64,000 nucleotides of DNA. Source: Phlegmacium glaucopus (taxonomy: Eukaryota > Basidiomycota > Agaricomycetes > Agaricales > Cortinariaceae). Location of the stretch: assembly GCA_015039465.1 (NCBI GenBank), contig MU130549.1:80107-144106 (forward strand). Direction: 5' to 3'. This document shows positions 1-34,906 of the stretch, piece by piece; position 1 is the first letter of the stretch; each line of letters opens with the position of its first letter. Under the pieces are notes generated by a model, which saw only the letters and a list, made by a program, of their open reading frames with translations, was not told where the DNA came from and ran no database searches. Both the position numbers and the translations under genes were made by a program.

Positions 1-180
1 CGGAGAGGAGTCCTTGCTGGTTGAATACCAAAGGGAAAGGCAGGAAGAAGGTGTTGGAGAGGAGGTTGTGTTTTATTAGGTAGCGCTTTGCCTATTTGCA
101 GAACATGAGGAGCAGGAAGTTGGGAGGACCGGAGAGGGTTAAGAGATTGGTTTAGGATTGGAAGAGGTTGGAAAGCAGGC

Positions 181-1461
181 ATGGTTGGCGATTTCCACGG
201 GAACCTTACAGCCTTATGCACTAGGCAGCACGAAGTAGGGGGGATGTTCCTTATCGTTTCGGCTCACGACGACGTTGGCCATCATGGTCTATTCGCGACA
301 CATGCATTACTTGCAGAACGATACTGGTGGCCAGGCATGAAACGCAACATTGCTTGGTTCATCACTACCTGTCATCTGTGCCAACTTCGCAAGACACAGC
401 AGAATGTAATTCCCCCTGTGGTCGCGACGCCAGCACCTTTATTCGCGAAGGCGTACATGGACACGATGCACCTTTCGACGTCGTCTGGGTACAAGTACAT
501 TGTCCAAGCGAGATGTTCGTTAACGCATTGGCCGGAGTGGGAGATGTTGAGGAAGGAGACAGCGAAGACGCTCACAAATTTCATTCTTCACAACATCCTT
601 TATCGTTGGGGGACCTTGGTGGAGATCGTCACAGACAATGGTGCCCCTTTCGTTAAAGCGTTGCATTACCTGGAGAAGGTTCACCATATCCGGCATATTC
701 GCATATCAGGTTATAACTCGCGAGCAAATGGAATAGTAGAGAGGTCGCATTTTGATGTGAGGCAGGCGTTGTTTAAGGCGTGTGATGGGGAGGAGAACAA
801 GTGGTCATCAGTGGCGCACTCAGTGTTTTGGGCGGAAAGAGTTACAGTAAGGAGGAGGATGGGATGCTCCCCGTATTTCGCGACGACAGGCACTCACCCT
901 TTACTTCCTTTCGACATCGCGGAGGCCAACTACCTGTTGCCTCCACCTACTGCTGCACTGTCGTCGACCGAACTCATAGCACGAAGAGCTATCGCGCTCC
1001 AAAAGCGAAGGTCTCAATTGGCAACTCTACATGACAAAGTCCACAATACTCAACTTAAGGCCGCAGTCCAATTCGAGAAAGACCATTCGCGAGTTATCCA
1101 CGACTACGACTTTCAGTTGGGAGATTTGGTATTGGTGCGAAATACAGCTATAGAGAAGGCGTTGAATAGGAAGATGCGAGCGAGGTACAATGGTCCGCTG
1201 ATAGTCATTTCGCGGAACCGAGGAGGGGCTTATATTATTGCGGAGTTGGATGGAGCAGTTTTTCAGAGGCCGGTTGCAGCGTTTAGGGTGATTCCTTATT
1301 TCGCGAGGAAGAAGTTGGATTTACCGCCGTTGGAGGAGTTGTTGGATATTTCAAGGAAGAGGTTGGAAGAAATGGAAAATTCCAAAGCTGAGTATTCAGA
1401 TGATGACGATGATGATGACGACGAGGAGGACGGAGAGCGTCTCCAGTTGGAGGAAGACTGA
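181..1461 (+). CDS. Ty3/gypsy integrase (C-terminal pol)
   Basis: Retroelement integrase that would insert the cDNA copy into the genome. A zinc-binding HHCC domain is visible (H29, H34 or H35, C64 and C67). The RNase H-fold catalytic core follows, with D94 (MDTMHL), D152 (TDNGAP) and E187 (NGIVERSH) spaced close to the family's D,D35,E. The C-terminal part around residues 315-350 has the GPY/F-type module of gypsy integrases (RYNGP...GGAYII). The protein ends in a strongly acidic tail (about residues 405-426). The ATG at 181 is only where the open frame begins; in the intact element this is part of a longer pol polyprotein. No internal stop or frameshift is seen, so this part still looks intact. 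Confidence 0.88.
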   Translation: MVGDFHGNLTALCTRQHEVGGMFLIVSAHDDVGHHGLFATHALLAERYWWPGMKRNIAWFITTCHLCQLRKTQQNVIPPVVATPAPLFAKAYMDTMHLSTSSGYKYIVQARCSLTHWPEWEMLRKETAKTLTNFILHNILYRWGTLVEIVTDNGAPFVKALHYLEKVHHIRHIRISGYNSRANGIVERSHFDVRQALFKACDGEENKWSSVAHSVFWAERVTVRRRMGCSPYFATTGTHPLLPFDIAEANYLLPPPTAALSSTELIARRAIALQKRRSQLATLHDKVHNTQLKAAVQFEKDHSRVIHDYDFQLGDLVLVRNTAIEKALNRKMRARYNGPLIVISRNRGGAYIIAELDGAVFQRPVAAFRVIPYFARKKLDLPPLEELLDISRKRLEEMENSKAEYSDDDDDDDDEEDGERLQLEED

Positions 1462-1491
1462 TCCGTATGATGAAACCTTCTAGCGAAGGAT

Positions 1492-1525
1492 GACTGAGGA
1501 CAGTCATTATTTCAGTTGGGAGGAG
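1492..1525 (+). promoter_or_regulatory. First polypurine-tract-like block
   Basis: The block GACTGAGGACAGTC, then TTTCAGTTGGGAGGAG, stands 30 bp after the integrase stop and is followed by TGAGATGG. It matches the block at 3371-3406 directly before the LTR almost exactly. Purine-rich tracts ending just before a TG are the plus-strand primer of LTR elements. Having two, on either side of the antisense gene, is unusual. Confidence 0.5.
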
Positions 1526-1956
1526 TGAGATGGCTGCAAAGTCATTTTCGCGTTTTCGCGTTTTTCACATTTATCTTTTTCTATTTTTTTATCTTCTTTC
1601 TTCATTTCGCGAGTCTGATTTCTCTTATTTTTAGTCTTACAATATGACGCGGACGCACGAGTAACATTTCGCGATGCCAATGCGCGACACATTCCGCACG
1701 CTTTTACCCTTTTCATCATCGTTCCAATCCGTTCAACCCTTACTCTTTATCGCTCCCACAATTTTCACCTTTCCAAAAATTTAAGAAAGTCCTTTTACTT
1801 TATTAGCCAATCTTCCCTTTTCTTAAAAATTTAACAAAGTCCTTTTATCTTATTCCTTATAAAACATTTCGTCAATTCACACAAGAATCAAAATCTTTCA
1901 TTTTAACGACAGTCCATTCTATTTACATATATTCACAACGCGACAAGAAAAGGAGC

Positions 1957-3223
1957 CTAGCCGTCCAGCGAAGTAGTATCCCTCAGACGATCCAACTGGG
2001 CTCGAAAGAGCTCACGCTCATGCGTCAACCGTTCGCGAGTCCGCTTGAGAGCCCTGTCCGAAGCTTGAAGAGCGTCTGAAAGGCGAAAGTTCTCCTCTTG
2101 AAGGTCGAGCACTTCGGATTGCGAAAGCTCGAGTTCCAAACGAAGGTTGGAAGCGGTGTTGAGCGAGTCTCTCGTCAAGTAGACAGGAATGGAAGGAAGG
2201 GTAGCGGGGGACTTGCTGGTGATCTCGACGATGGGAATATGAGTGGAAGGAGGCCGAGCTGCAGTGTCGGTACCCCGCTTGCGTTTGAGAGGACGAGGGG
2301 TGTCTTCCGGAGTCTTAGCCTTAGTCGCGGCCCTAGTACGAGCTCGCTGGACCTCCGGGATAAACGAGCATTTTGTCTTGGAGCCCTCGCACTCCGTACA
2401 TCGCCTTTTCCCTTTGGCGACCACACATTCCTTTTCCTTCGTGTTGCAGGTTTTGCACTACGAAAGTATTTAGTAAGGCAACACCTCAAGACGGGTACAT
2501 ACCTTCTTTTCCATGATGCGCCCTTCATCGCGATGCTTTCCCTTAGCCTTGGACGACTCTTCACCTCGAGAACTAGGAGGCGGAGCAACTATGTGATAAG
2601 GTTAGCGAAGAAGAAAGAGCTACAAAAACTAACTTTACCTTCTTCGACATCATCATCCTCGTCCGCGTCGTCCATAGGATCGTCCAGTTCCTCAGCTGCA
2701 GGTGTGATAGCTGGCGAGCCAGGAGGCGTGACGCCTTCAACTGGGGACAGCATAGCTACAGGAGGCCGGAGTTTATCTAAGTCCTCAAGGAGCCGCCTAG
2801 CGTCAGCCATAGCGACCGTTAGCTCGCTGCAGTTGGTACGAAAGGTCGTCGAAGCCAAGATCCTGTTGGCCAGTTTTTGAAACGCAGCGGGGTCTTGGTC
2901 GCTGAACTCATGTGCCTCGGTCATTTGACGCACGAGATCATTCATCTTGTACTAGGATGAAAGTCAGCAACATACATGAAAGGAGAAAGAAAGGATGTCA
3001 AAGGACGACTTACGATGTCTTGCACCATTACCTTAACGAACTTTTGCTGCATCGGCGCAGGCGTCTCCCCAAAGAATTCCACAGTATCTTCGAACTCCTT
3101 GAAACTTTCGGCGAAGCGATCAGCTAACGAACGAGGTACAGCAGAAGTGGTGACTGGAGCACCAGCACCAGCAGGAGGCGCGACAGAAGCAGCAGCAGTA
3201 GGAGTAGGCGCGGTTGAAGACAT
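1957..3223 (-). CDS. Antisense gene in gypsy element, Zn2Cys6-like plus coiled coil
   Basis: Four-exon gene on the strand opposite to the integrase: complement(join(1957..2457,2503..2588,2639..2951,3014..3223)), predicted 369 aa. All three introns (62, 50 and 45 nt) have GT..AG ends with donors GTAAGT, GTAAAG and GTATGT, and the joined frame is open. The N-terminus is Ala/Pro-rich, then helical (residues ~30-130), then acidic (~150-175). Exon 4 opens directly on a cysteine cluster C204-x2-C-x6-C-x8-C-x2-C-x6-C233, the spacing of a fungal Zn2Cys6 binuclear cluster. A basic stretch and a heptad-like coiled coil (last ~70 residues) follow. The plan is the same as gene Y of the KDZ elements in this window. 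Function unknown; sequence-specific DNA binding is inferred from the cluster only. Confidence 0.78.
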
Positions 3224-3298
3224 GTGGAGGATGGCTTAAGCAGTAGAGGAAACACTAAGAGGTAGACGATGAGGAAGAAAGTGTGGCGCGGACAGTTG

Positions 3299-3307
3299 CC
3301 TTTTATA
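3299..3307 (-). promoter_or_regulatory. TATA box of the antisense gene
   Basis: On the minus strand the sequence reads CTATAAAAGG about 76-84 bp upstream of the ATG at 3223. Position and sequence fit a Pol II TATA box, so the antisense gene appears to have its own promoter and does not depend on LTR transcription. Confidence 0.6.
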
Positions 3308-3370
3308 GATTTTCAACCGCCAGCGGGATCTCACATGACTTGCGGAGGTTTGACCAGGGCGTAGGGTTTA

Positions 3371-3406
3371 GACTGAGGACAGTCTAGATTTCAGTTGGGA
3401 GGAGGA
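3371..3406 (+). promoter_or_regulatory. Second polypurine-tract-like block before the LTR
   Basis: GACTGAGGACAGTC followed by TTTCAGTTGGGAGGAGGA lies directly upstream of the LTR start TGATAGG. This is the expected plus-strand primer site of the element. A mirror copy is in the right palindrome arm at about 9401-9436. Confidence 0.55.
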
Positions 3407-4291
3407 TGATAGGATCCATATAGCCTCTAGGTTCGTAAAACTGGTTATTTTTGCGATTTAACGACTTCGCAGTATACGCGGATGCCTTGCGGGTACCAAC
3501 TTCACTCGCACTCTCATTCGCGGTTGTCGCACATCCTTCGCACATCACACAACATGATATAGGCCTCGCATAACCTTCGCACATCACTCCTACGACCTTT
3601 GTAACTATCCAACGCACCCCCGTTCCTCTTCGCACTTCATACTTCGACGTATCTTCAGCTTTCTCTATCAATACCGGACTTGACCATTTCTTTCCTTTGC
3701 AACCACATCTTCACACAGCTTCTCTTTAATCTCGCGGTCTTTCACGACTCGCATACGCATCCCTTTCACTGGTTTGATCATGGTCCGTATTGTTCTCAAC
3801 TTAATTTCTTTTAACTTTCCATATATATTATTATTTTATCATCTCCTTCGAAACAGGAGGTCATTCAACTGACCTCCTTACTCATCACTTCTATTTTTAT
3901 TCTATCCCCTATTCCTTCGTTACCAAACTACTGGGCTCATGTGACTCCGCATTAGCTCAATTTTTACATTACTGTTTCGCATACCCGCACCTGGCTTAGC
4001 TTGTTACTCTTGTATTAAGTATCTGTAGCAAGTAGGAGGGAAGGTGAACAAGAGACGGCCAGAGTTTTGATCCCATAAACTTTGCAGCAACGTTCTAAGT
4101 CAATAAGTCTCATCCTTTAAGCTATTTCGCGTACTACGTTATCATTCGCAAACTTCGCTATCTTCGCGGTCTACTCTTCTTGCGTATCTCGATACCGAAA
4201 ACTTCTCTTTAAAAACTCTACCGAGGAAATCTACATTAACCCCTCCGAACTACGTTACTACTTGCGGTCTGATCCCACCGCAGGTACATCA
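3407..4291 (+). repeat. Gypsy LTR (left palindrome arm)
   Basis: 885 bp beginning TGATAGG right after a polypurine block and ending GGTACATCA. The 3' end is supported by an independent fragment of the same terminus at about 15728-15799, where homology also stops at TACATCA. The LTR is rich in TTCGC words. There is no coding content I would support: the small open frame 3384-3671 on the minus strand runs through it and looks accidental. Confidence 0.6.
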
Positions 4292-5376
4292 GCGCGACCA
4301 TGGACAAATTTCTGGATAGACCAAAAGGAGAAGCCGGGCCTTGTGGCAGATGAAAGGGCTGCAAAGAAGCGCGTGGCTGCCAGTGACGCAGGTCCAAAAG
4401 TACTTAACAACATCTCCTCGTCAACATATCTATTCATCTCACTGCTGAATCAACACTCAGACCATTTTTACTTATCCCTTCCACTCACACCTACAAGATG
4501 ATGGTGCACCACATACACACAGAAAAATTGAACACAAAAGGTCAGGTCAAATTCACATTAACGCACATACAGTAATTGTAGACCCACCGCTTGTATGACG
4601 CATACACTCGATGGTACTACTGGATGTGTTGTGGACCTATGAAAGTACAGGTAAGTGAAAAGATAGTTCAAGTCACTCCTATCATACTAAGCCCTTCATT
4701 CATTCACTATCGATATCAATCCGCACTGCAGGCCACCTTCCTCCCGTGACACTAACAAGCATTCCAATCACTCACCCAAAAACGCGACAAATGACCTTTA
4801 AATTCATCATCGCCCTCGGCTTCATTCCGTAGCTTCTAAAATTATCCAAGCCTGGAGTTCATTGTAGGCGCGACCTTGGATAACATTTTGGACAGACGGT
4901 CAGACGGGATACAAATATACGATCTACAGTTGGAACTGATTTCTCAGCCCCAACTTAACTGGAACTTAAAAGATCTTAGAGGGAATTTATCGCTTCCTGC
5001 CGATGTGAATTGCTTGGCGATATGAACTCACCGATCTAGAAGAAACACTTCAAGACCAACAACCAGCCAACATGTATACCGGTTTTCACATCTCTAAGAC
5101 TACGTAGCTGCTAACTTATCTTTCGTACTGCTGAGGGCGATTAGCCGTGCGCTTCCCAGTCAGGAATTCAGTCGATATAACTTGCTGGATAGACCGTAAA
5201 GATGGAGGAAAGCCGGGTCTTATGGCGGATGGAGGTGATGAGGGCTGCGAAGGATAAGACCTTGGCTGGAGACCAAAGTCCAAGGGTACTTAGTATAATA
5301 TCTCCTCGTCAACATAAACTCACCGCCCTCTACTCATCCCACCGATGAAAACAACACCTCTTGCCGCACATACAAG
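4292..5376 (+). other. Non-coding stretch with two degenerate repeat copies
   Basis: No gene can be supported. Two diverged copies of a ~150 bp segment sit at about 4305-4450 and 5180-5330. Both read TGGATAGACC, then GCCGGGYCTT, GGGCTGC and ATCTCCTCGTCAACATA. The segment is host or old repeat sequence 3' of the LTR, and its inverted copy is at about 7432-8516. Confidence 0.45.
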
Positions 5377-5660
5377 TTCTCCGATATTCTTCAAGAAAAG
5401 CCAGCTGGAATGCATATCTCAGAGATCGGGCAGAAATCTGGTATCGAAGCGCGGAAGGTTGGAAGAGTTCTCCGAATATTAGCTTCGAAGCACATCTTCA
5501 GAGAAGGTGAGTCAATGTGAACAAACTACTAGTTGATCTCTCAAACTGATTCTACAAATTGAAAAATGAAGTCTCGGACAACGTTTTTGCCAACAACAGA
5601 TTGAGCATTCAACTTCTCAGCAGTAACCCGTTATCTAGCCTCGGGCTCCATTTGTCTCTA
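5377..5660 (+). pseudogene. O-methyltransferase fragment (N-terminal winged helix)
   Basis: Two exon pieces translate as a typical fungal class I SAM-dependent O-methyltransferase N-terminus: 5377-5506 contains PAGMHISEIGQKSGI and VGRVLRILASKHIFRE, and after a GT..AG intron (5507-5571) 5572-5640 contains SDNVFANNRLS. These are the dimerisation/winged-helix motifs preceding the catalytic domain in natural-product methyltransferases. The SAM-binding domain is missing; homology ends near 5660. This is the only recognisably host-type gene sequence in the window. A mirror copy lies in the right arm. Confidence 0.75.
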
Positions 5661-5989
5661 GTCTCCCGTAGCCAGCCTGACGTAATGGCCTCTTTGTAGA
5701 ATTTAGTATTTGTCACCCATATGTAATTTGTCTCTGTTATCACTCCTTTTACAGTGCCTTGCATATTGTTTTGCACACGAAATTTCCAGCGAGCTGTTTG
5801 ATGTGACCACTCTGTCACTTCAAACTTTATTTCGGAAGCGAACAACGGCGGATCTTGGTGTGCCAGTCCTATTGTCAGTGGCAAGGTTTGCTCGTCAGGG
5901 GTTCTGGTGCTGTACACGAGACGCGGATAAGATCCAGAATGGTGGCCTAGCCACGGAACGAGGCTCTGGAGCCATGAAGGGTCAGTCAA
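5609..5989 (-). CDS. Unknown open frame in left palindrome arm
   Basis: 126-codon open frame, identical to 6819-7199 on the plus strand. The middle part (IGLAHQDPPLFASEIKFEV and a Trp/Lys-rich segment) reads like real protein, but I do not recognise the family. It overlaps the end of the O-methyltransferase fragment on the other strand by a few tens of bases. It may be a remnant of a larger gene. Confidence 0.3.
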   Translation of the reverse strand: MTDPSWLQSLVPWLGHHSGSYPRLVYSTRTPDEQTLPLTIGLAHQDPPLFASEIKFEVTEWSHQTARWKFRVQNNMQGTVKGVITETNYIWVTNTKFYKEAITSGWLRETRDKWSPRLDNGLLLRS

Positions 5990-6170
5990 GACTCAGAAGA
6001 AAACCGACCCAGGGTTTTGAGTTGCCGTGGGAGAGTGATTCTGAAGTCACATCAAACAGCTTGTGAAAATTTCGTGTATCGCTTGCCGCATGCCGGTATA
6101 CCGGTGTACTTTCCAACTTTGCAGCGTATATATCCATCGCTGTAATGTCAAATGGCCGGCTCCGTTCAGC

Positions 6171-6195: not shown

Positions 6196-6702
6196 TCTCA
6201 TTTACGATATTGCCTGCCAATATTTTGTTCACTTACAGGACCGGATAGGCTGCCAACTCCCATTCGGCCTGGAGGTTGAAGCGGCTATCGGCCTCTTTCA
6301 CGTTCATGCACACAAAGACGAATGTTTCTTCCGGTATGCCACCTCCTTTATCCCGGGAGCCGGTGTTGTTGCCGGTGAGATTTTAGAGTCTCTTTGGTCA
6401 ACTCTGAATTCCATTTCACCCACTGCACGTACGGCAACACTTGTGCACCGGGCTGAAATGTTGGACGATCATGCAGCTGATTCTAATCACAAGAAAATGC
6501 TCGGCATGGTCTCAACTCTATGTAAATCACATCGGAGAGCTGTTGATATGCTTGAACATGCTCAATCATACTACAAAAGCCTGACAATTCAGGGTGGACC
6601 CATTGCAGTGGATAGATGGAAGCAAGATATTGAAAGCGCTGAACGGAGCCGGCCATTTGACATTACAGCGATGGATATATACGCTGCAAAGTTGGAAAGT
6701 AC
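6190..6702 (+). pseudogene. KDZ transposase fragment in palindrome loop
   Basis: The frame encodes the core of a KDZ transposase: IYDIACQYF, then FHVHAHKDECFFRYATSF, then GEILESLWSTLNS and HRAEMLDDHAADSNH. These align with the same segments of the intact KDZ2 transposase in this window. The fragment lacks the CxC2 cluster, the DGNF segment and the C-terminus. It runs about 60 bp into the right arm. The use of CCGG-containing words suggests it derives from the KDZ1 family. It lies in the opposite orientation to the broken KDZ1 transposase at 9482-10721. Confidence 0.85.
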
Positions 6703-6818
6703 ACCGGTATACCGGCATGCGGCAAGCGATACACGAAATTTTCACAAGCTGTTTGATGTGACTTCAGAATCACTCTCCCACGGCAACTCAAAACCCTGGG
6801 TCGGTTTTCTTCTGAGTC

Positions 6819-7199
6819 TTGACTGACCCTTCATGGCTCCAGAGCCTCGTTCCGTGGCTAGGCCACCATTCTGGATCTTATCCGCGTCTCGTGTACAGCA
6901 CCAGAACCCCTGACGAGCAAACCTTGCCACTGACAATAGGACTGGCACACCAAGATCCGCCGTTGTTCGCTTCCGAAATAAAGTTTGAAGTGACAGAGTG
7001 GTCACATCAAACAGCTCGCTGGAAATTTCGTGTGCAAAACAATATGCAAGGCACTGTAAAAGGAGTGATAACAGAGACAAATTACATATGGGTGACAAAT
7101 ACTAAATTCTACAAAGAGGCCATTACGTCAGGCTGGCTACGGGAGACTAGAGACAAATGGAGCCCGAGGCTAGATAACGGGTTACTGCTGAGAAGTTGA
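6819..7199 (+). CDS. Unknown open frame in right palindrome arm
   Basis: Inverted copy of the open frame at 5609-5989, with the same 126 codons. I do not recognise the product and cannot say whether either copy is expressed. Confidence 0.3.
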   Translation: MTDPSWLQSLVPWLGHHSGSYPRLVYSTRTPDEQTLPLTIGLAHQDPPLFASEIKFEVTEWSHQTARWKFRVQNNMQGTVKGVITETNYIWVTNTKFYKEAITSGWLRETRDKWSPRLDNGLLLRS

Positions 7200-7431
7200 A
7201 TGCTCAATCTGTTGTTGGCAAAAACGTTGTCCGAGACTTCATTTTTCAATTTGTAGAATCAGTTTGAGAGATCAACTAGTAGTTTGTTCACATTGACTCA
7301 CCTTCTCTGAAGATGTGCTTCGAAGCTAATATTCGGAGAACTCTTCCAACCTTCCGCGCTTCGATACCAGATTTCTGCCCGATCTCTGAGATATGCATTC
7401 CAGCTGGCTTTTCTTGAAGAATATCGGAGAA
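7148..7431 (-). pseudogene. O-methyltransferase fragment, mirror copy
   Basis: Inverted duplicate of 5377-5660 with the same two exon pieces and intron. Only the N-terminal winged-helix part is present. Confidence 0.75.
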
Positions 7432-8516
7432 CTTGTATGTGCGGCAAGAGGTGTTGTTTTCATCGGTGGGATGAGTAGAGGGCGGTGAGTTTATGTTGAC
7501 GAGGAGATATTATACTAAGTACCCTTGGACTTTGGTCTCCAGCCAAGGTCTTATCCTTCGCAGCCCTCATCACCTCCATCCGCCATAAGACCCGGCTTTC
7601 CTCCATCTTTACGGTCTATCCAGCAAGTTATATCGACTGAATTCCTGACTGGGAAGCGCACGGCTAATCGCCCTCAGCAGTACGAAAGATAAGTTAGCAG
7701 CTACGTAGTCTTAGAGATGTGAAAACCGGTATACATGTTGGCTGGTTGTTGGTCTTGAAGTGTTTCTTCTAGATCGGTGAGTTCATATCGCCAAGCAATT
7801 CACATCGGCAGGAAGCGATAAATTCCCTCTAAGATCTTTTAAGTTCCAGTTAAGTTGGGGCTGAGAAATCAGTTCCAACTGTAGATCGTATATTTGTATC
7901 CCGTCTGACCGTCTGTCCAAAATGTTATCCAAGGTCGCGCCTACAATGAACTCCAGGCTTGGATAATTTTAGAAGCTACGGAATGAAGCCGAGGGCGATG
8001 ATGAATTTAAAGGTCATTTGTCGCGTTTTTGGGTGAGTGATTGGAATGCTTGTTAGTGTCACGGGAGGAAGGTGGCCTGCAGTGCGGATTGATATCGATA
8101 GTGAATGAATGAAGGGCTTAGTATGATAGGAGTGACTTGAACTATCTTTTCACTTACCTGTACTTTCATAGGTCCACAACACATCCAGTAGTACCATCGA
8201 GTGTATGCGTCATACAAGCGGTGGGTCTACAATTACTGTATGTGCGTTAATGTGAATTTGACCTGACCTTTTGTGTTCAATTTTTCTGTGTGTATGTGGT
8301 GCACCATCATCTTGTAGGTGTGAGTGGAAGGGATAAGTAAAAATGGTCTGAGTGTTGATTCAGCAGTGAGATGAATAGATATGTTGACGAGGAGATGTTG
8401 TTAAGTACTTTTGGACCTGCGTCACTGGCAGCCACGCGCTTCTTTGCAGCCCTTTCATCTGCCACAAGGCCCGGCTTCTCCTTTTGGTCTATCCAGAAAT
8501 TTGTCCATGGTCGCGC

Positions 8517-9400
8517 TGATGTACCTGCGGTGGGATCAGACCGCAAGTAGTAACGTAGTTCGGAGGGGTTAATGTAGATTTCCTCGGTAGAGTTTTTAAA
8601 GAGAAGTTTTCGGTATCGAGATACGCAAGAAGAGTAGACCGCGAAGATAGCGAAGTTCGCGAATGATAACGCAGTACGCGAAATAGCTTAAAGGATGAGA
8701 CTATTGACTTAGAACGTTGCTGCAAAGTTTATGGGATCAAAACTCTGGCCGTCTCTTGTTCACCTTCCCTCCTACTTGCTACAGATACTTAATACAAGAG
8801 TAACAAGCTAAGCCAGGTGCGGATATGCGAAACAGTAATGTAAAAATTGAGCTAATGCGAAGTCACATGAGCCCAGTAGTTTGGTAACGAAGGAATAGGG
8901 GATAGAATAAAAATAGAAGTGATGAGTAAGGAGGTCAGTTGAATGACCTCCTGTTTCGAAGGAGATGATAAAATAATAATATATATGGAAAGTTAAAAGA
9001 AATTAAGTTGAGAACAATACGGACCATGATCAAACCAGTGAAAGGGATGCGTATGCGAGTCGTGAAAGACCGCGAGATTAAAGAGAAGCTGTGTGAAGAT
9101 GTGGTTGCAAAGGAAAGAAATGGTCAAGTCCGGTATTGATAGAGAAAGCTGAAGATACGTCGAAGTATGAAGTGCGAAGAGGAACGGGGGTGCGTTGGAT
9201 AGTTACAAAGGTCGTAGGAGTGATGTGCGAAGGTTATGCGAGGCCTATATCATGTTGTGTGATGTGCGAAGGATGTGCGACAACCGCGAATGAGAGTGCG
9301 AGTGAAGTTGGTACCCGCAAGGCATCCGCGTATACTGCGAAGTCGTTAAATCGCAAAAATAACCAGTTTTACGAACCTAGAGGCTATATGGATCCTATCA
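8517..9400 (-). repeat. Gypsy LTR (right palindrome arm)
   Basis: Inverted copy of the LTR at 3407-4291, differing by a 1-bp indel and a few substitutions. The arms are otherwise nearly identical outside the LTR as far as I can see. Confidence 0.6.
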
Positions 9401-9481
9401 TCCTCCTCCCAACTGAAATCTAGACTGTCCTCAGTCTAAACCCTACGCCCTGGTCAAACCTCCGCAAGTCATGTGAGATCC

Positions 9482-10721
9482 AGCGTAACAGTTGGAAAAT
9501 TGATAAGCCGGTGCACTTCAGTCCTCTCAACCTCTAAGTTGCACAACCGAAAAAGATCCAGTAGTTGGGTGGTAAACAGAGTTCTGATCCGTTGAAAACT
9601 TGCCGGCAGCAAACGGGCTGCCAGAAGATCACAGGGCAACAAGTCCACGCCTTGGCATTGGCAGCTAACCATTGCAATGTTATGAATGCCATTGGTATGG
9701 ACAACTCTGAGGTATGTGCCGTTGCCGGTACCACTCTCTGTCGGCAGATATTGGTGTGAAATAGGGGTTTCTGTTTCTTCCTCCTCCAATTCATCCTCCT
9801 TTTCCCCCAAATCTGCAGGATTTTCAAGGGGTTCATCCCCCAGATTGTCATCTCTAAGTGCCTGCAGATAGCGCATGAATTCTTCATCAGCTTGATCCTC
9901 AAGTGGATTAGCATTGAATCCAGTTTCTGCCATGTCAATGTCATCATCATCGTTCATAGGCTGCCGGTGGGTGGCCTGTGCCGGGGCCGGGGCCACTAGC
10001 GTGGAAAGCCGACCCTGTTCCTCATTGTCTCTCGTGTTCTCTACTCTCTCCAAAAAATTGGTGTGACATCTGAGCGCGTCACAGATAGATACACCAGCAT
10101 GATGCCGGACAAGTAAATACACGCTGACCTCCCACAGCTCAGCTGGCTGAAAGAAAGTCCCGTTCCATTGCTCAATGCGATGGAACGGATTCTCTCTGTG
10201 GGAGACACGCATACATGCTCGGCACATGGGAGTACCCATCCCACAATCTCTACACCTCCATACCACAAAGACACCTTTGTCACAATGCTGGCACTGCTTT
10301 GCTTCGTCGGCCAGTACCTCCCGACTCATAAGGGCTTCCAAAAGACTATCTACACGGGCCACGTACTGCAGAATGTACTCCTTTTGTGTCTGGAACGATG
10401 GAAATGTCAGTATACTTGTAAAGCTGTGCGCAGGATTATGCCCACCCGATATGTCTTTGTATGCTCCGGTGGGGGAGGAGACACATTATCCATCTCGTAT
10501 CAAATAGGCAAGGTCTCTGGTCGATTTGCATTGGCTGATAATGTCTGGCGTGGAGTATCTAATGACTCCAATATTTGTTTCGTCACTATTGTTCCGTCGT
10601 TCCTGGTTTCCGTAATTTTTCTGTGTGTGACTGCATGAGCCGAGTCTGGGTCTCCATCTATCATAGGCTGTTTCCCCCGTTTGCGTTTGCGAACCTTTGT
10701 ATTCGGTACTGTGACAAACAT
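9482..10721 (-). pseudogene. KDZ1 transposase, N-terminal part (CxC2)
   Basis: Minus-strand transposase start. From the ATG at 10721 a basic, lysine/arginine-rich segment runs to an in-frame TGA (10500-10502). A short stretch and a probable intron follow, then the frame 10362 to 9482 with the CxC2 cluster characteristic of KDZ transposases (CQHC, CRDC, CRAC, and PFHRIEQW followed by a LRH-type motif). The acidic linker and the THNG-containing segment align with KDZ2. The coding sequence stops abruptly at the palindrome junction, before the DGNF and YDIACQY catalytic segments. Dead by truncation and nonsense. A plausible missing piece, inverted, lies at 6190-6702. Confidence 0.88.
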
Positions 10722-10794
10722 GGCAGTAAAATCAAAGAAATTTGAATACAACAGCCTTCAATTGAATCATAATCGGCACCACATGTGTGCCTGA

Positions 10795-25941: not shown

Positions 25942-26176
25942 TTGGGACCACGCGGGCTGGTTTTTTTGACTTAGAATACCGAAAACTTTGGCTGTTAGAT
26001 TTTGTCATCTGTCCTTTTTGCCGCCCTCCACACAGGAGGGCGGCTCCTTAAATTTTTTGTTATCTTGCCTCCCAGGAGGACCCAAATGTTACATATGGTA
26101 TTCAAAATATCATCTTTTGCTGTTCTGTGTAGTGAGACAAATCCAAAACATTGAGAGCACCATATTACTACTGGTG
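25942..26176. other. Convergent 3' intergenic region of Y2 and X2
   Basis: 235 bp between the stop codons of Y2 (plus) and X2 (minus). It contains a short inverted repeat (CCTCCACACAGGAGG) and T-rich stretches. No gene seen. Confidence 0.5.
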
Positions 26177-28351
26177 TCAGAAACGTCTGGGTGCCTTGTC
26201 CTTTGCCGTTGCCGCCCTAGTCCTCCTGGCTACTCCTTCATCAGCTGCCATCATAGATGCCGCTGCTGCTGCTCTGGTCCGCATGCTCTGCCGAATCTGT
26301 GGTGGCAAGTCTTGTCCCTGTCTGGGTAATGTGTCGTTATCGTCTGCTCCCGGCCGATCTTGGTGAGTAATGAATGCAGTTGAGATTGATGGTGACTGTG
26401 TAGGGGTGCCGCCTGGTATGGTCACAGCCGCAGCCGCATCGGGTGCTCCGCTTGCCGCCGCGGCCGCTGCTTTGGCTGCTGCATGGCCTCTTGCGGACAC
26501 CCTCACCACTAGCCCTGCTGTTCTGATTCGATCAGTCTCAGTATCCGCTCCCACACACTCTTGTAGTGGTGCTGCTGATGTGGATCTTTGCTCCGTACTA
26601 CCAGCATGAGGGTGTCGGCGTGTGGATACCGCAATCAGCTCATAGCCATCTGGTCCTCTGCTTGCCGCTTCGGCAGTTGCCTCAGTTGCCGCATGGCCTG
26701 TTGCTGACGATACCGCAATTGGCTCAGCTTGTCCAGGTGTAGCCTGACTGCGTCTTGCCACCTCCTTCTCCTTACCTCTCCTGTTGACTGTAACATGGGG
26801 TTGTTGAGTGCTGTTATCTGACATTAGATTCGGATACAATGCGTTGATAGACTGTTTATCCCGTCCAATGAATAGCCTGAATCGAAAGGCCCGTTCTACA
26901 CCGTCCCTGATCTGCCGCTGATATACATGCCGCATGAGCCGAACAATGTTGTCCTTGTGCATATTTCGTGGATCTTTTATCACGAGTCCCTCTGGTCTGT
27001 ATTCATGGGCCACAAATCGATTGGTGTTCTTTTCTACTTGTTCAAAAGGCACCTGCCTCATGAGTCCGCCGCTTGCAAGGTCTAGGCACATTCCCACGTT
27101 ATCATAGTTTGTATGACCCAGCGGCATTCACTCACAGTAATGCTGGCTTAAAAAGGAACGTAGGATGTGTTCCCACTGTTTCTTTGTGAGGTCTCCTGTT
27201 ACTGCTTGCGGCAGCATCGGGAAGCCATTGATGCCGCTGGAGAGGTCAACGAGATCGATGGCCTGCCGGGGACTTGGGAAGGCGTTAACACCGCTTTGTA
27301 AATCAACGAGATTTGTCGAGTGGGATCCAGAGCCGCTAGGGTGGTCGTCCGCTCCTGTCCGATTGCTAACTGAGCTTGCCAACTGCCCATCTTGAGTTCG
27401 GATTGATTTAACAAAGTCAAGTAGTAGCCTTTTAATTTCCATCACTTTGTCATTATATCGTGCTGTAAATGACTGCCCATTTCTTCCCACGTGTTTGGCA
27501 ATGTCTTCATGGCTGCGAGTAGAGAAGGGAATGCGAGCGGTCTGTTAGTATCGGCCACATATGTCTCTGAGCAGCATCAGCACCTACCAATCCACGACCC
27601 AACGCCCTTGACAGTCTGAATGCACAGTGAAAACCATGGTCAACATTCCCATATCCAACCAGCGTTCATGAGCCCACTTCCGTACTACTTCATCTCCATG
27701 TCTCTCTGCCCGCCTTGTCATAAATTTAGCAGTTTGTCTACACCATAAAGCAGGATCTTAGACACTCACTCATGCTGAGTATTTTCAGGGTTACCTTCCC
27801 TCTTACGAGCTTCAACTTTGGCATCAAAAGCGGCACGGTCCTGTGGACTCATGCTGTCGAGAACCTGCTTGCAAGCATGTGTTCGTTGTGCAAAAAATCT
27901 GGGATCCGTCCAATCAACACACATCACATCCAACATCAGCTTGAGTTCCTTATGGACTGCTTCAGTATGCTCCTTCCATATAATATTTAGCGGATTAACA
28001 ATGATTAAACTCTTGTGCTCGGTCAAGGCCGCAACAGGACGCCAGTTGTTTCTAATCCATGTTGCCAAAGCCTATGGACATGTGTCAATAAATATACTGG
28101 TGCTTCATAACAGGTAACACCACAACCTGCTGTCGGGATTTCCATTCTTCATCATTCATTGGGCCGATACCCTGGTCATTCCAGTAATTGAAAATGGCGG
28201 GCAGGATCTTTTCTCGCATTAATTGTCCCCGCAGCTCTCTTGTTGACGAGCTGCGATATTCCTCTTTGAATTTCCCAAATATCTCCTTTTCCACCGGTGT
28301 GTAGAGGCCCTGCTTTCGTGGTTGCCTAGCTTTGGGAGAGGGAGCAGTCAT
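26177..28351 (-). CDS. Accessory gene X2 (KDZ2), unknown function
   Basis: Minus-strand gene with ATG at 28351. Exons: 28127-28351, 27770-28071, 27588-27737, ~27128-27512 and ~26177-27072. The first donor is GTTGTG (unusual); the others are GTGAGT and GTAGGT types. Exon 1 has KILPAIFNYW, exon 2 WIRNNWR and KQVLDSMS, exon 3 WLDMGM..TVHSD, exon 4 starts at the H-E-D-I-A motif, and exon 5 has VPFEQVEK and ERAFRF. Each block aligns with X1 of KDZ1, with the same intron phases. The C-terminal third is Ala-rich and ends in a basic stretch. No known domain recognised; conservation across two diverged elements suggests a real role in the element. Confidence 0.75.
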
Positions 28352-28528
28352 CGTGAGGATACGCAGATAACAACAAAAGACAAATGCCATCGTGACAATA
28401 ACATGCGGCATAACACAAAAGAGAAATGTCATTGTGACAATAACATGTGGTTAACCTCGTGTTCACCTTGAGGTCACTTATCATTGCCCCTTCTCCAACA
28501 TATTTCTTCACAAGTTGCTCTACCAGCC
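28352..28528. promoter_or_regulatory. Divergent promoter region of X2 and KDZ2 transposase
   Basis: 177 bp between the two start codons. It contains a near-perfect ~45-bp direct repeat (AAATGYCATYGTGACAATAACATG, twice), a candidate site for a shared regulator. The corresponding place in KDZ1 holds the minisatellite at 10795-11195. Confidence 0.5.
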
Positions 28529-31500
28529 ATGGAACATCAGCCAGGCCGATCAGTGAAACGGAAAAACAAACGGCAGCGGCTGGTGGAAGGTGAGGACGAC
28601 GCACTGGACACTGTGATGGTAGAAAGAAGGCAGGTGGAGACACCGGCAGGAACTATGCAACAGAGAGTCAAGGTGCCGGTCAGACTCGACGTGATGCGAC
28701 CTGATCAACACGCGGGCATAGGTGTCGCTATGCCATCCACATTACAAGGAGCGGAATCGGCAGGTGCGGCATGTGCGGCAGACATGGCTGATGCCCATCT
28801 TCCTGAGAACAGTGACATGCCAATAGAGGGACCAAGAAAAGAAGGGAATAAACAATTTTTATACCTGCAGGAATTTGCATGCCGGGTGGATAGCCTTCTT
28901 CAGGCCCTACTTTCAAGAGAAGGTCTAAATAACAGTCAGTGCAGTAAATGTAATGCACAAAGCGGGAAATGGAGGTGTAAGGACTGCCTTGGAGCGCAAC
29001 CGCTCTGCCGCCTGTGTATGCGGCAGACACACATAGACAACCCCTTCCACCGGATTGAAAAGTGGACTGGGAAGCATTTCCAAGCGGCAGGGCTTTGGGA
29101 AGTCGGGGTCTATATCCGGCTGCGGCACCGTGACTCTACACCTGCCTGCCAATATATGCAATGGCAGGAGGAGGTATTGGAGAACTTCCAGACCCTCAAG
29201 GATCAAGATGATCACAACATTACTGCTGCCATGCCAGATGTTATCCTACCCAGTTACGCAGACAATGCTCCACCCAATGATATGACCGACGATGCGGCAC
29301 AGGCACAGGACAACGAATTTATGCGGCATATGGATTGGCTTCGCGGATCTGGTGGCAGATCTAGGGACAATGTCGAGGACATATCTGAGATCTTCCGGGA
29401 TGAGGATGAGGATCTATGTGAAGATTCAGAAGCCGATGTTTCAACTGAAGAGATTGGAGTATCGGGATTCGAGTCTTACATTTCACACAATGCCGCTACC
29501 GCTGTGCCGCTCGCCAATGCCCTCAACAATACCTATGTCCGGGTCATTCACACAAACGGTGTCCACCATCTGGCCTTAGCCACATGTTCCTGCACAGGTA
29601 TGCAGGGTCTACCAGAGGATCTGATTCACGCGGGACTTATGCCGACAAGTTTCAAGCGGGTCCGGACGATATTCACACTTGCTGTCCTTGATCAGTTCAG
29701 ATACTCCAATCTGGAAATGAAGGCATCGGCATATCAGTTTTTCGAGATGTTACGCAGAATAACAATGCCAATGACCCCTGCCAAGGTCGTTAACTTTTAC
29801 CATGAATTGCGACGACTATCACGTGTTTGGCGATGGATGAAGAAGTTGAAATGGGCAGGATTGGGTCACAAAGAGGCTAACGCAATGGACGTATCTCCAG
29901 GCGAATTAGCCATATTCTGTCCTGCATGTCCGCAGCCAGGCATTAACCTGCCACATAACTGGTTAACTGATCCGAATTGTTGGGTTTACCGCCGTTTCTT
30001 TGTAGCAGATGGGAACTTCAAGGCGGATCATGTCAAGCAAAATCAAGCTGGCCCTGACCTCTGGTTGTCTGAGGGTGGAGGGATGATGACTCGGCGAGCT
30101 GAATACAAGGAGTTTTTGCGGACAGCCACTGAGCGGCTCACGGTAAGACTGGTATGCCGCACAGCCGTTCTTGCGGACGCTAACTCTGTCCGTAGAAGGC
30201 ACCATGTGAAAACACTTTCAGAGCGATTGAGCAGGCCATGCTATTCTCGAAATCCTGTGACATCACTGGAATAGTGGCGATCGCCTGTGCAAGGCATGGA
30301 TGTTTTGCACCAAATAGTATTGTGGATTTGACACGGGGGGAACAACAGAAAAATGTCGACTGGGCCTTTCTGGAGGCACTTCGGACAACATCCTTAGATG
30401 CGGCCCAGGGTGTCATGCTCATATACGACATAGCCTGTCAGTACTTCATCCATATGAACGACCGGATCGGCACGCAGCTACCGATCGGCTTAGAGGTCGA
30501 CCGGGCAATTGGCTTGTTTCATGTCCATGCGCACAAAGAGGCTTGTTTCTTCAGATATGCTTCATCATTCATTCCTGGGACCGGCGTGTGCGCTGGAGAA
30601 ATATTAGAATCCCTTTGGTCCAACCTCAACACAATATCACCGGCAACATGGACAGCAACATTGGCACATCGGGCAGAAATCATAGATGATCATGCCACTG
30701 ACTCAAATCATTCAAAGACACTTGCCATTGGTATGTTCCGTAGCAATTTTGATGCACTCGAATTTATCCGTTTCAAAGGGACAACGCTTACACGGAGATT
30801 CAAAGAGAGTTTGGACATGGTCAAAGAGACAACAAAGTATTATGATCATTTGACGTCAACCGCTGCCGCTGCCGACATTGCCGAGTGGTCGGCATGCATC
30901 ATAGCGGCTGAGGCAGAGCGACTGAAGGACCCCGCTGTCATGGACATACTTGCCGCACGAGAACCCAAGTGTCATACCCAACCAGAGCCAGTTGATCAGA
31001 TTACACCGATGGGTGAGGATTGGTGTAGATTAGCAATTGCAGTAGAAGAGCGGCAGATTGACATTCAGGATCGGGTCAGACGCCTTGGCAAAGAACCACG
31101 TGAAGAAGACCGGCAGGATGTTGAGCGGCTACGCGGCCTCTTGGTGGCTGAGCTTGCACAGGTGGTGTCCTTGCAGACTATTGCAGTGTCATATGTTGGA
31201 AATATGCGGGTCGTTGCAACTGAACATGATGTGGAACACTTTGAAAATCTTGATGAAGAGGGTCCTCAGTCAGCCGCTGGCCGCTCAGCCAACTCTCTTG
31301 CTGCCGAGGTTTCCGCTCCCACTGAAGGGTTAGCACCAGAGTGTCAGCTTGTCTCTATGCCGTCCAACACTCTTCAGGATGATCATCCTCTTCGCCTGGT
31401 AGAACTCTCACTTAGAAAGGACCAAGCGGCACGATACCTACAGGCTTTGCGGGAGGTCATTGCGGACAAATCTTTTCACTTTTCCGACATAATGCGACTG

Positions 31501-32108
31501 GCACCAAAAAAGAGTGTCCGCACACGTGCCCGCACCGCAGTCGGAAAACTCAATCATCGGATCGCCTTGTATAGCCGCATTTACAGAAGGTGCCGCCTGG
31601 CATTGATCAATCTGAGTGCCGACCAAGAAACGTTGCACCAATTTCAGTTGCTGCAGAGGGATGATGTGATGGCAAGCACTGTCATCCTCGATCCGAATCG
31701 GCCGGGTGCTTCCTCCCTCCGCCTCTCATGGATCTGGCAATCATCAACTGATAGACTTCTGCCGCAGTCCGCTGACTCAGTTCGTGAATGTACGTAAAAT
31801 GATGACTTTGCATCTATGTCCAATTGATTAAGGTTGCGTCAGTCCAACGTGTCCATTGGTTGAGAGCAAGAGCGCAAAATAATCGGTGGAATGAAGAACA
31901 TATATTAGTTGGATATGAGATGGAGTGGTCTGTAAGATACTTTCTTAATAACGCGAGGGTATGGGAAGGGCGCAGCGATGCCGCTGCAGGCAATCCGGGA
32001 GCGGCTGCCTATGCGGCAAGGCAGGTTACCAAATGGCGGCAGGTGGCTGCCTCCTGTGATCATCTCTTTCAGGGCATCAACCCTCATTACGTCAGGCTTG
32101 TTACGTGA
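28529..32108 (+). CDS. KDZ transposase (CxC2 type), apparently intact
   Basis: join(28529..30142,30196..31789,31843..32108), predicted 1,157 aa. Both introns are 53 nt with donors GTAAGA and GTACGT. Order of motifs: a basic N-terminus; the CxC2 cluster (residues ~135-200: CSKC, CKDC, CRLC, PFHRIEKW, RLRHRD); an acidic region; the conserved T-N-G-V-H-H segment; the RNase H-type catalytic core with DGNF (D494), YDIACQY (D616), the H-V-H-A-H-K-E-A-C-F-F-R-Y block and GEILESLW (E673 or E676) as likely acidic residues; and a C-terminal RWNEE..GYEMEWSVRYF segment. A non-ATG open frame extends a little upstream; the ATG at 28529 is the first good start. This is the candidate autonomous transposase of KDZ2. 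Confidence 0.93.
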
Positions 32109-32176
32109 CAATGTGACTTTGTTCGGTTTGATTGTTATCATCAGCCTTTACCATCATTAGCTTGCCAAGAGCGATA

Positions 32177-34306
32177 ATGTCCAAACCTTTGAATCTCTTG
32201 AACATCTATGATATAGAGGAATCTCCTTACAGAACAGATTCCCTTCATATCCAGTCTATCATTAATTACAGTGAAGCCCGGTTCACTGCGGCTTTGCGAG
32301 CAATTGCAAAAGCCGCTCCTCCGAAGGTGTACCTGATGATGGAATGTTTCCTTCAAGAACTAGTACGTCTGTTTGAGATCCTTTGTACAGTTAGAGTTTC
32401 CATCTCCTTCCAGCTTTTCTGTTTGTCTTATGTTGGATTGGCAACGGCTATGGGGCAATCGATCAACATCCCGCTATTGATTCGATCTTTGGCCCAAAAT
32501 TACGAGCACACAACTTCGGCTGCGAAGAGGTTCAATTTAGACAGCAATATACTGGAATATCTGCAGTCTGGCATTGTCGACGTACCAACGAGTCCTATTA
32601 AGAAGTTCTTGCTGGATTGGTGGAATACGGCTGAGACCCCAACACAATCCACCAGCGTTTTCAGCCTTCAAACTGTCTCCAAGTGCCTCGCATTCCATGC
32701 CGCAGAAATTCAACGGGCAAAGCGGCATATTCCTGAGGCGGCCACAGGTAACGCCATTCCGGGGCGCCCTGCTGTTTCTGCTGATCTCTCGGGAGATATG
32801 AACAAGCCGCATTACGGATGGCACAACTCCATTTGGTGTGACCTGGACGGCAACCATTGCCCACGCTGCCGTTTGTATCGGGCGGCTGCACTGGGAGTAC
32901 GGGATGAACTCAATGACCTCCGTAACTATGTGGATGTCGTGGAGAGAGCCCATCGTGCAGAGTACACACTCTCTATACGTCGTGCCGCTGGCCTAAATTT
33001 ATTCTACGAAGCTGCTGTCATCAAAGAGTGCAGCTCGTCCGCCCAGCCATCAGTAGCGGGAGCGGCATCGGGAGCGGCTCATCTTCCTACTCCGCCTTCA
33101 GGAGCAGTGGACCCATCACAGAAGTGGACATGGGGGATTGAGTTGAATGAGGAAGATCTAATCGAGATGGTTCGTGCAGCAGATCAGGACTTTGCCTTGC
33201 CGCACTCGGGCTACGACGAGAGCCTCACCGGTTGGGACTTGCCGTCAGACTCGACCGGTCCCACTAAAAGGGTACACGTCCAGTTAAACAAGGAACTCGC
33301 AAACCCACCAAGCTATGAGAAACTTAGCTCAGATATTGAGGTGGAACCAGAGCTTGAGGCCTCTCAAATTCCCCTGGCCTTTCGCGATTTTCCTTTACAT
33401 CCAGGGGGTCGGCAAGACCCTGCCGCTCCCGCTCCCGGTCGAGTGCCTCTCGAATCAGATACCAGAGAGATGAGGTGGTTGCCTCACCCTCCCCCTGATT
33501 ATGTTCGACCTCCTGCTCAGTTAGGTATGATCACATCTTTGACCATTTTCTGCCTCTTCCCTAATCTCAAGATAGCTGTCGCATCTCTCATAATCGGCAG
33601 CAACATTGACACAGCTATATACATTGGGTCCGATGAGGAGTGTGCCGATGTGCCCACTCAGTCGGCGCACCCGCCTGCAGAGGACATCAGTAGCCCTGCC
33701 GGTGAGATAGCCGCTGCCGCTTCAGAGCCAAATGCCTTGCCGTTAACCATTTTTATGGGGGATTCGGAGGACGATGTTCCATTATCGGTTACCCCCAGTT
33801 TTTTACAAGCTACTGCTCAACAAACCGCATCGAGTGATGGGCAGTGTGCGGCTCCGTGGACCGTTTTCCTTGACGATTCCGACCTTGAGATTTCTGAGAT
33901 GCCTACGAGGACCGCCCTGCCAACGTTCGTATACCTTGATGATTCTGACGATCATGATGTAGGACCATCAACAGCCATCCATGTTGAGGGCAGTCCGGTC
34001 GACTGCAGTGCGGGTATTCTTTCTACGGAGATCTTTATACCATCAGATGATGACATTGAGTCGGGGGAGGGTATTGTATGTGGGGATATCTTTGTTCCAT
34101 CAGATGACGAAGAAGATGATGAGGGCCATCATACTATGTTTAAAGATTTTGCCGATACATTTGTTCCTGATTCAGAGGAGGAAGAGGAGCAAGAGCGGGA
34201 AGCAGGAGCGGCAGGAGCGGCAGGTGGACCTGTCGGAAGAGGCAGCTCGGGCCCCTATACGGCTGCCGATTTTGCCCACTTTGATGACCGCTGGTTGGGC
34301 GACTAA
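32177..34306 (+). CDS. KDZ2 protein with seven tandem SUMO-interaction-like motifs
   Basis: Downstream of the transposase, same strand. The frame from ATG 32177 to 34306 is open; two 51-nt GT..AG segments (32363-32413 and one starting ~33525) look like in-frame introns, which would give about 675 aa. The N-terminal ~330 residues are helical with a C-x-x-C pair (HCPRCRLY). The C-terminal part repeats a hydrophobic core plus Ser/Asp/Glu run: IYIGSDEE, IFMGDSEDD, VFLDDSDLE, VYLDDSDD, IFIPSDDD, IFVPSDDEE, TFVPDSEEE. That is the pattern of SUMO-interacting motifs. I do not recognise the N-terminal fold. Its equivalent in KDZ1 would lie in the part lost at 9481. Confidence 0.72.
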   Translation: MSKPLNLLNIYDIEESPYRTDSLHIQSIINYSEARFTAALRAIAKAAPPKVYLMMECFLQELVRLFEILCTVRVSISFQLFCLSYVGLATAMGQSINIPLLIRSLAQNYEHTTSAAKRFNLDSNILEYLQSGIVDVPTSPIKKFLLDWWNTAETPTQSTSVFSLQTVSKCLAFHAAEIQRAKRHIPEAATGNAIPGRPAVSADLSGDMNKPHYGWHNSIWCDLDGNHCPRCRLYRAAALGVRDELNDLRNYVDVVERAHRAEYTLSIRRAAGLNLFYEAAVIKECSSSAQPSVAGAASGAAHLPTPPSGAVDPSQKWTWGIELNEEDLIEMVRAADQDFALPHSGYDESLTGWDLPSDSTGPTKRVHVQLNKELANPPSYEKLSSDIEVEPELEASQIPLAFRDFPLHPGGRQDPAAPAPGRVPLESDTREMRWLPHPPPDYVRPPAQLGMITSLTIFCLFPNLKIAVASLIIGSNIDTAIYIGSDEECADVPTQSAHPPAEDISSPAGEIAAAASEPNALPLTIFMGDSEDDVPLSVTPSFLQATAQQTASSDGQCAAPWTVFLDDSDLEISEMPTRTALPTFVYLDDSDDHDVGPSTAIHVEGSPVDCSAGILSTEIFIPSDDDIESGEGIVCGDIFVPSDDEEDDEGHHTMFKDFADTFVPDSEEEEEQEREAGAAGAAGGPVGRGSSGPYTAADFAHFDDRWLGD

Positions 34307-34399
34307 TGTTTCATTTGTTGTTTTTTTGGTACAATCTTAAAAATATATTTGTACCATTGCAATGTCTCTGCAGCACATGGCGGAAGTGCATCGGAGATG

Positions 34400-34906
34400 A
34401 AAGATTCAGCCGCAGAAAGTGGCACATGAGCAGCATCAGATGGTGGCAACAGAGAGCGGCATCGTGCCGAGCCGCCCAGGCTCTCCCGGCAGTCACTCAG
34501 CTGCCGATTGCGGAGCAGTTTCAGCCGCTTTGAGACTTTCATCAAACTCAGCTCAGCTTACCCGATGCTCTCATATCTACATCACATGTTTGACCTACAT
34601 GCCCTCTGACAATTCCCTCTCTCACACATTCATTTTCCTATCATCTACCTCCTCATGACAGCTGTGCCGCCAATCCTCCAGCTAGGCAAATCCCTGCCGG
34701 ACGGCACCGGCATGCCATGCCGCTTGGCTCATAGGTCCGCTTGCCCGTTCGCTCGAACCGATAGGAACAGCTACAGTGTATGTTGCCCAGCTGTAGCTGG
34801 CGTAGCCTATGGGGCGTTCGCTGGCGTTCGCCCGAACTGATCATGACAACTACACTGTATGCGTTCGCTGGGCGTCATACTCGTTACAGTGTAGTTTACC
34901 ATCCTG
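34400..34906 (-). repeat. KDZ2 right terminal inverted repeat
   Basis: Inverted match to 21353-21857. It ends GTAGTTTACCATCCTG at 34906 and is followed by TTCATCA, the direct repeat of the left flank. Confidence 0.88.

Follow-up and report, generated by a model that had tools for sequence, protein, structure and literature searches.

A 64,000-nucleotide stretch of the Phlegmacium glaucopus genome (contig MU130549.1, positions 80,107 to 144,106, numbered C193 here; hereafter the window) contains two transposable elements with KDZ transposase genes, KDZ1 and KDZ2, and part of a gypsy element. Each KDZ element is filled with its own short CpG-containing word, CCGGCA in KDZ1 and GCGGCA in KDZ2. 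Our reading, to which we assign a probability of about one half, is that (C or G)CGGCA, scattered through the members of a clade of KDZ elements, is a self-address word; the elements' own zinc-cluster protein likely reads it and would likely block silencing. Direct observation covers the word itself and the facts that it is confined to the elements, is more frequent in coding DNA than codon use explains, is conserved, occurs in tandem arrays of several unrelated units and begins with a letter that matches the zinc-cluster subtype.

Distribution of the words

Words were counted in both orientations throughout (GCGGCA/TGCCGC and CCGGCA/TGCCGG). In KDZ2 (21359-34900) GCGGCA is the top 6-mer, with 81 occurrences against 10.9 expected under an order-2 Markov background (P 3e-42); in the interior (22200-34390), which excludes a subterminal 33-bp array, there are 66 against 8.9. 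The 9.2 kb of KDZ1 between 9485 and 18690 hold 49 copies of CCGGCA against 11.8 expected (order-2 Markov, P 6e-16), the word ranking second behind the overlapping CGGCAC. Enrichment of these words in their own elements had been proposed by eye in a first-pass annotation of the window and is borne out by the counts, as is the proposal that the two words differ by a single base, at the position preceding CGGCA: this letter is A12 C17 G81 T25 in KDZ2 and A5 C65 G5 T18 in the two segments of KDZ1, and a logo of the words shows a weak A ahead of them. The density of GCGGCA in KDZ2 is 5.98 per kb and that of CCGGCA in KDZ1 is 5.48, against 0.28 (GCGGCA) and 0.10 (CCGGCA) in the right flank (34914-64000). 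Successive 1-kb bins of KDZ2 hold 13, 5, 6, 6, 8, 9, 1, 9, 3, 3, 6, 5, 4 and 3 GCGGCA, the last bin covering 0.55 kb.

The search was extended to the 60.5-Mb genome (259 contigs, given C-numbers; fetched loci have L-numbers), in which 76 KDZ matches were found; beside the window, the 11 top-scoring other loci were read, over 20 kb for seven of them and 10 to 14.5 kb for those on C228, C210, C224 and C48. Dispersed CCGGCA was found in six of the 11 (C164, C41, C227 at 82 kb, C228, C198 and C224), at 52 to 123 per stretch against 3 to 12 for GCGGCA, so the recount in other copies that the first-pass annotation called for gave the same word again. Wherever an element border falls inside the stretch read, CCGGCA drops to near zero beyond it; the stretches on C228 and C224 begin at contig ends, and on C164 the words begin just ahead of the CxC2 domain. 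We refer to these CCGGCA elements, and to their zinc-cluster subtype, as C-type, and to those with GCGGCA as the KDZ2 subtype. In the remaining five loci (C148, C238, C60, C210 and C48), where CCGGCA occurs two to four times, neither a dispersed word nor a zinc-cluster match was seen within the stretches read. Local clusters were seen in some of these wordless loci (ACAAATT in L028 on C48, GAATATT and GGACACC in L010 on C148, GGAGGGA in L020-L021 on C60); ACAAATT, GAATATT and GGAGGGA were considered as self-words and dropped, as they were mainly a few local clusters. Three further loci (C10, C223 and C227 near 62 kb) were chosen as the nearest relatives of KDZ2, and in C10 GCGGCA is again the top 6-mer (26 against 4.8 expected).

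Composition, codon usage or the expansion of repeats could produce such a pattern as a by-product: Ala/Pro-rich frames and arrays contain the word, and with an order-3 background the expected number becomes 48 for the 81 words of KDZ2 (200 shuffles, maximum 78) and 36 for the 49 of KDZ1 (200 shuffles, maximum 60), although that background is fitted on the words themselves. Against this stand the clean neighbouring DNA and three further tests, and we regard the explanation as very improbable. In the first, synonymous codons were re-dealt 300 times within stop-to-stop reading frames of 100 codons or more, which are not gene models, and the coding word count lay above every shuffle in all nine elements, with z of 13.3 for KDZ2, 8.3 for KDZ1 and 10.5, 12.7, 19.5, 8.0, 8.6, 9.3 and 5.8 for the others. 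Six control regions gave z of -1.7 to 1.7 for both KDZ words, and in the elements the opposite word was near expectation (largest z 2.3). The excess that remains after synonymous shuffling rules out codon or GC bias, the weakness foreseen in the first-pass annotation, as the source of the KDZ words, and upholds the observation that they occur in coding and non-coding DNA alike. In the second, 378 words remained outside every tandem array of the nine elements against 39 expected, which rules out repeat expansion alone; the word or its CCGGC core also lies inside arrays of unrelated units, of 15, 17, 18, 19, 20, 21 and 33 bp at least.

The third test compared the retention of words between elements with that of control CpG 6-mers of equal GC, with the reservation that element pairs share members and hence are not independent. 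At 70-80% identity the word was kept in 282 of 793 cases against 862 of 6131 for controls, about 2.5 times better, while GCGGCA was kept in 4 of 64. Words were kept in 8 of 15 cases and controls in 72 of 154 at 80-90% identity, too few to tell; the figures are 162 of 211 against 732 of 1201 at 90-97%, and 154 of 175 against 968 of 1118 at 97-100%, where there is no difference. As the majority of words lack a counterpart at 70-80% identity, words have also been gained or lost.

Pooled over seven C-type elements, the CpG decay products of the word are raised, with CCAGCA found 183 times (2.7-fold) and CTGGCA 155 times (2.3-fold) against 67.5 each, whereas transversions at the same two letters stand at 0.4- to 1.0-fold. 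This base-substitution pattern would be consistent with methylation of the word. Decay at the word sites of C-type elements would also be compatible with a tag used by a host factor to find and silence the elements; however, elements should lose such a tag, and the word is instead kept above controls and recurs in unrelated arrays, so that this explanation seems hardly credible.

The putative word-reading protein

The candidate reader carries a cysteine cluster, complete in KDZ2 (C-x2-C-x6-C-x8-C-x2-C-x6-C, 24420-24509, + strand) within the first open frame of the zinc-cluster gene (23583-24920, + strand). Alignment of 22 clusters gave the pattern C-x2-C-x6-C-x8/9-C-x2-C-x3-K-x2-C, a few being incomplete at the start, and the lysine is invariant in all 22; in Gal4, a lysine at the equivalent place reads bases. 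A profile of the 22 clusters had eight matches in PDB, the best being LEU3 (E 0.019); seven of these we take, by name, to be Zn2Cys6 regulators (two LEU3, LAC9, AlcR, PPR1, Pho7 and one more), and the eighth was Pex12 (E 1.8). Pfam scans returned chiefly Zn_clus, 20 of 22 clusters matching at E <= 10. In the LEU3 alignment the second half of the KDZ cluster pairs with the first half of LEU3, and the first with the second. In their native order five clusters score 12.9 to 20 bits against PF00172, all under the curated cut-off of 21, whereas exchange of their halves raised every one of the five tried (14.6, 14.2, 12.9, 20.0 and 16.0 bits became 21.2, 24.2, 20.3, 26.1 and 18.1, each as a single stretch) and took three past the cut-off. 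Canonical controls dropped on the same exchange, LEU3 from 39.0 to 30.8 and GAL4 from 48.0 to 39.7 bits. Because exchange raises the scores of these clusters and lowers those of the controls, they are, judged by sequence, circularly permuted Zn2Cys6 domains. The first-pass annotation was therefore correct in calling the cluster Zn2Cys6-like, in that it is related to this family by both PDB and Pfam, but the halves stand in opposite order. Its statement that all three elements of the window encode a complete cluster holds for KDZ2 and for the antisense strand of the gypsy part (2368-2457, - strand), where the same complete spacing is found, but not for KDZ1, whose remnant (15620-15709, - strand) has only Cys3 to Cys6 in frame. 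The cluster at 82 kb on C227 likewise has its first cysteine missing in frame.

A protein search with the zinc region of KDZ2 covered 2164 candidates and gave none at E 0.001; one with the C-type frame of L043 gave two matches among 7991 candidates scored, both from Phlegmacium glaucopus. Relatives sought in viral contigs were not found. The literature search found no paper joining KDZ, Zn2Cys6 and transposase, and among the matches listed for Zn2Cys6 there was nothing on swapped halves or on such transposons. By eye, a conserved N-terminal stretch, approximately F..PRF.W.FT..W..AK, is common to the C-type zinc proteins of the window (15561-16060, - strand), P0001 and L049.

If the word is read by this protein, its first letter should follow the cluster subtype. 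The genome was searched with the KDZ2 cluster (24 places) and with the C227 (82 kb) cluster (23 places), and the ten next-best places of the latter search, 1.6 kb each and picked by cluster alone, served as a forward test. The predicted CCGGCA was found in all ten, at 9 to 20 each against 0.7 to 1.3 expected, with 0 to 2 GCGGCA; the divergent C-type clusters L052 and L053 gave CCGGCA:GCGGCA of 12:0 and 10:0. In the six KDZ2-subtype loci besides KDZ2 the GCGGCA:CCGGCA counts were 11:4, 5:2, 7:1, 0:0, 2:0 (clipped at the element border) and 4:0, so GCGGCA is the commoner in five of six. Pooled, the ratio is 29:7 in these six loci against 5:159 in twelve C-type loci, and the word thus changes with the zinc cluster, the very comparison that the first-pass annotation had suggested. 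A further divergent cluster, L051 (C9:34600-35799), has neither KDZ word (0:0) and has AGCCGC/GCGGCT as its top word (7 against 0.5 expected), which is perhaps a third word. Near the KDZ1-like cluster of L049 (C101:3200-4799) CCGGTA occurs 12 times against 0.4 expected, beside ten CCGGCA.

A simpler role for the zinc protein would be that of an ordinary activator or repressor of element genes, with no part in silencing. Zn2Cys6 domains do belong to transcription regulators, and acidic and coiled-coil-like stretches are seen by eye in the zinc protein P0002; however, tens of words over 9-16 kb, gene bodies included, are far above what promoters need, and we think this quite improbable.

Organization of the elements

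KDZ2 (21353-34906, + strand) is a clean insertion, as the 7-bp duplication TTCATCA flanks it on both sides (21346-21352 and 34907-34913) and its termini are CA..TG. Inverted arms at 21359-21854 (+ strand) and 34399-34900 (- strand) match each other at 91%, and the subterminal array (21827-22193, + strand), of about 11 copies, has TGCCGC in its 33-bp unit. Downstream of the zinc-cluster frame lies a second one (24934-25941, + strand) with a coiled-coil-like stretch, by eye, and a Pro-rich tail; it likely continues the zinc gene, because the homologous locus L033 has the zinc cluster, a coiled-coil-like stretch and a similar tail in a single 751-amino-acid frame. There follow an open frame with relatives in C10, C198, C224, C227 and KDZ1 (26177-27127, - strand), the CxC2 part of the transposase gene (28472-30274, + strand; PF18803, E 1e-18), the KDZ transposase core (30196-31797, + strand; PF18758, E 3.9e-38) and an open frame (32132-34306, + strand) which has no match in Pfam but has relatives in C10 and in all six fetched CCGGCA elements.

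The arms and the subterminal array raise the alternative that the word is a binding site of the transposition machinery, either the transposase or a TNPA-like factor, as in the subterminal repeats of En/Spm, its spread through the interior being a by-product. In the excerpt seen of a report on CACTA elements, TNPA-type proteins and subterminal motifs vary between elements (PMC2613891), and an element-encoded binding protein, predicted in KDZ, together with a repeated short motif is common to both systems. The transposase, moreover, changes together with the word. However, unlike the TNPA motifs described in that excerpt (PMC2613891), the KDZ words are not limited to subterminal DNA and run through the interior and coding sequence of KDZ2, and no dispersed word is present in five loci whose KDZ transposases belong to other subgroups. 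We consider this alternative unlikely, though deserving of serious attention.

KDZ1 (9485-21345, - strand, ends approximate) is a remnant, interrupted by a repeat-rich insertion at about 18690-19905 and by a large palindrome on its left side. Its CxC2 part (9469-10485, - strand; PF18803, E 1e-12) has a 97.8% twin on C224. An open frame (14528-15379, - strand) with a coiled-coil-like stretch, by eye, adjoins the zinc remnant, and two sets of repeats, one mostly in 21-bp steps and containing CCGGC (10797-11104, + strand) and an 18-bp array with CCGGCA in its unit (17465-17652, + strand), lie within the element. The palindrome arms (3323-6170 and 6638-9484, about 2.85 kb each) are 99.8-100% identical around a 467-nt loop which contains a KDZ fragment and an A25 run; this either arose recently by inverted duplication or is an artefact of the assembly. 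Minisatellite-like AGGAATCC/CCAGGAAT repeats occur at 18690-19905 and 51016-51261, and are present in C41 too.

The gypsy part outside the palindrome (1-3322) includes an integrase frame with TTCGCG words (109-1461, + strand; PF17921, E 1.4e-16). TTCGCGA occurs eight times on its + strand (span 292-2038) and is the commonest 7-mer there, and 11 of 12 TTCGCG sit on one strand. The chance of any 7-mer reaching eight is 0.022, 0.015 and 0.13 under order-1, order-2 and order-3 shuffles, respectively. The coding words lie within the synonymous shuffles (7 against a mean of 2.4, maximum 8), and non-coding words number 5 against 0.6. The genome has 33 matches to this element, the alignment exceeding 1.2 kb on each of eight further contigs, and a diverged copy is located at C145:761613-764283; the word was counted in the window copy alone. 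The first-pass claim that the gypsy part is loaded with this word stands as regards the eight copies; the excess is moderate and the case weak.

The suggested connection of word-bearing elements with TET/JBP genes was dropped, since the genome's 13 Tet_JBP matches, 11 of them above the cut-off, all lay outside the word-bearing stretches read. Several Tet_JBP matches are on contigs with KDZ matches (C13, C120, C138, C188 and C206), about 8 to 26 kb apart.

Discussion

VANDAL elements are Mutator-like. The pattern found here most resembles that of VANC and VANDAL: in Arabidopsis, VANC binds a short motif of its own VANDAL element, where tandem repeats multiply the motif, and loss of methylation has been demonstrated (PMC5735166, of which an excerpt was available). 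The likeness to the system in that excerpt (PMC5735166) lies in a family of element-encoded proteins, each linked with a short motif that recurs along its own element, the KDZ reader being predicted, in the accumulation of the motif in tandem repeats, as also in the KDZ arrays, and in a motif that differs between subfamilies, in KDZ perhaps through a single C/G switch. However, the KDZ system is not a member of VANC/VANDAL, because the element has a KDZ transposase (PF18758) and not a Mutator-like one, the candidate reader is a permuted relative of Zn2Cys6, and the words occur in coding DNA too, whereas the VANDAL motifs of the excerpt lie in non-coding regions (PMC5735166). The candidate reader shares with the Gal4-type domain (PF00172) six cysteines in two halves of like spacing, but has these halves in opposite order. 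As for the elements, the Kyakuja/KDZ transposons of Agaricomycetes have 7-bp target-site duplications and CA..TG ends, and two Laccaria KDZ families are said to be without terminal inverted repeats, in the portion available of PMC12730594. Compared with that portion (PMC12730594), the KDZ core and a CxC domain are common to both, the duplication and CA..TG ends being found in KDZ2 only, while KDZ2 differs in its inverted arms of about 500 bp at both ends and the word-bearing stretches read differ in that no TET/JBP gene was seen. Cryptococcus KDZ elements have a CxC1 domain and 8-bp duplications, and no self-word is named in the excerpt of PMC12810828.

In the mechanism that we favour, the CGG core of the word would be bound by the half-swapped Zn2Cys6 domain, the zinc protein would assemble through the coiled-coil-like stretch after the cluster, and it may then coat the element along its whole length; by analogy with VANC, an anti-silencing effect on the CpG-containing target could follow. 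Self-recognition of this kind had been inferred for all three elements of the window in the first-pass annotation; the zinc subtype does predict the word (ten of ten in the forward test, five of six KDZ2-subtype loci), but the gypsy case is weak and the KDZ1 cluster is incomplete.

Several observations weigh against this mechanism. The ten loci of the forward test are not ten lineages, L046 and L048, L044 and L045, and L040 and L043 being near-copies, and one, C198:239602, lies at a distance of about 11 kb from one of the word-bearing stretches read earlier. L036, of the KDZ2 subtype, has neither word, L039 has nine of each with CCGGCC on top, and L050 (0:2) has no clear word, whilst the stretches read of C41, C164, C228 and C224 bear the word but yielded no zinc cluster. 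The KDZ2 relatives C223 (GCGGCA 8 against 2.3) and C227 near 62 kb (ten GCGGCA, six CCGGCA) are weak and interrupted, and C10 has a slight coding excess of CCGGCA (9 against 4.5 expected, z 2.3). The near-words CCGGCT and TCGGCA are up more than 4-fold in C-type elements, more than the decay products, and the decay products of KDZ2 do not stand out. The C/G change may have happened just once on the tree of the elements, and the support for a reader matched to its word is therefore an association; as the CxC2/KDZ transposase changes along with C/G, the zinc protein is not singled out as the reader.

A wider interpretation is tentative, and we would put it at somewhat short of even odds: that the KDZ self-recognition code arose independently of plants, with a swapped-half cluster reading a CGG word written across the whole element by means of synonymous codons, and with subfamilies diverging by one letter and by their reader so that each opens only its own silenced DNA. 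If this is true, transposons would have a second case of sequence-specific self-recognition, unrelated to the first and in another kingdom; each element would hold tens of sites, and a single genome would make a protein-DNA code visible. A binding word would act as a constraint on protein-coding DNA, and a DNA-binding domain that is very common in fungi would exist in a rearranged form. The evolution of such a code would be directly testable, with two related subtypes and two words one letter apart.

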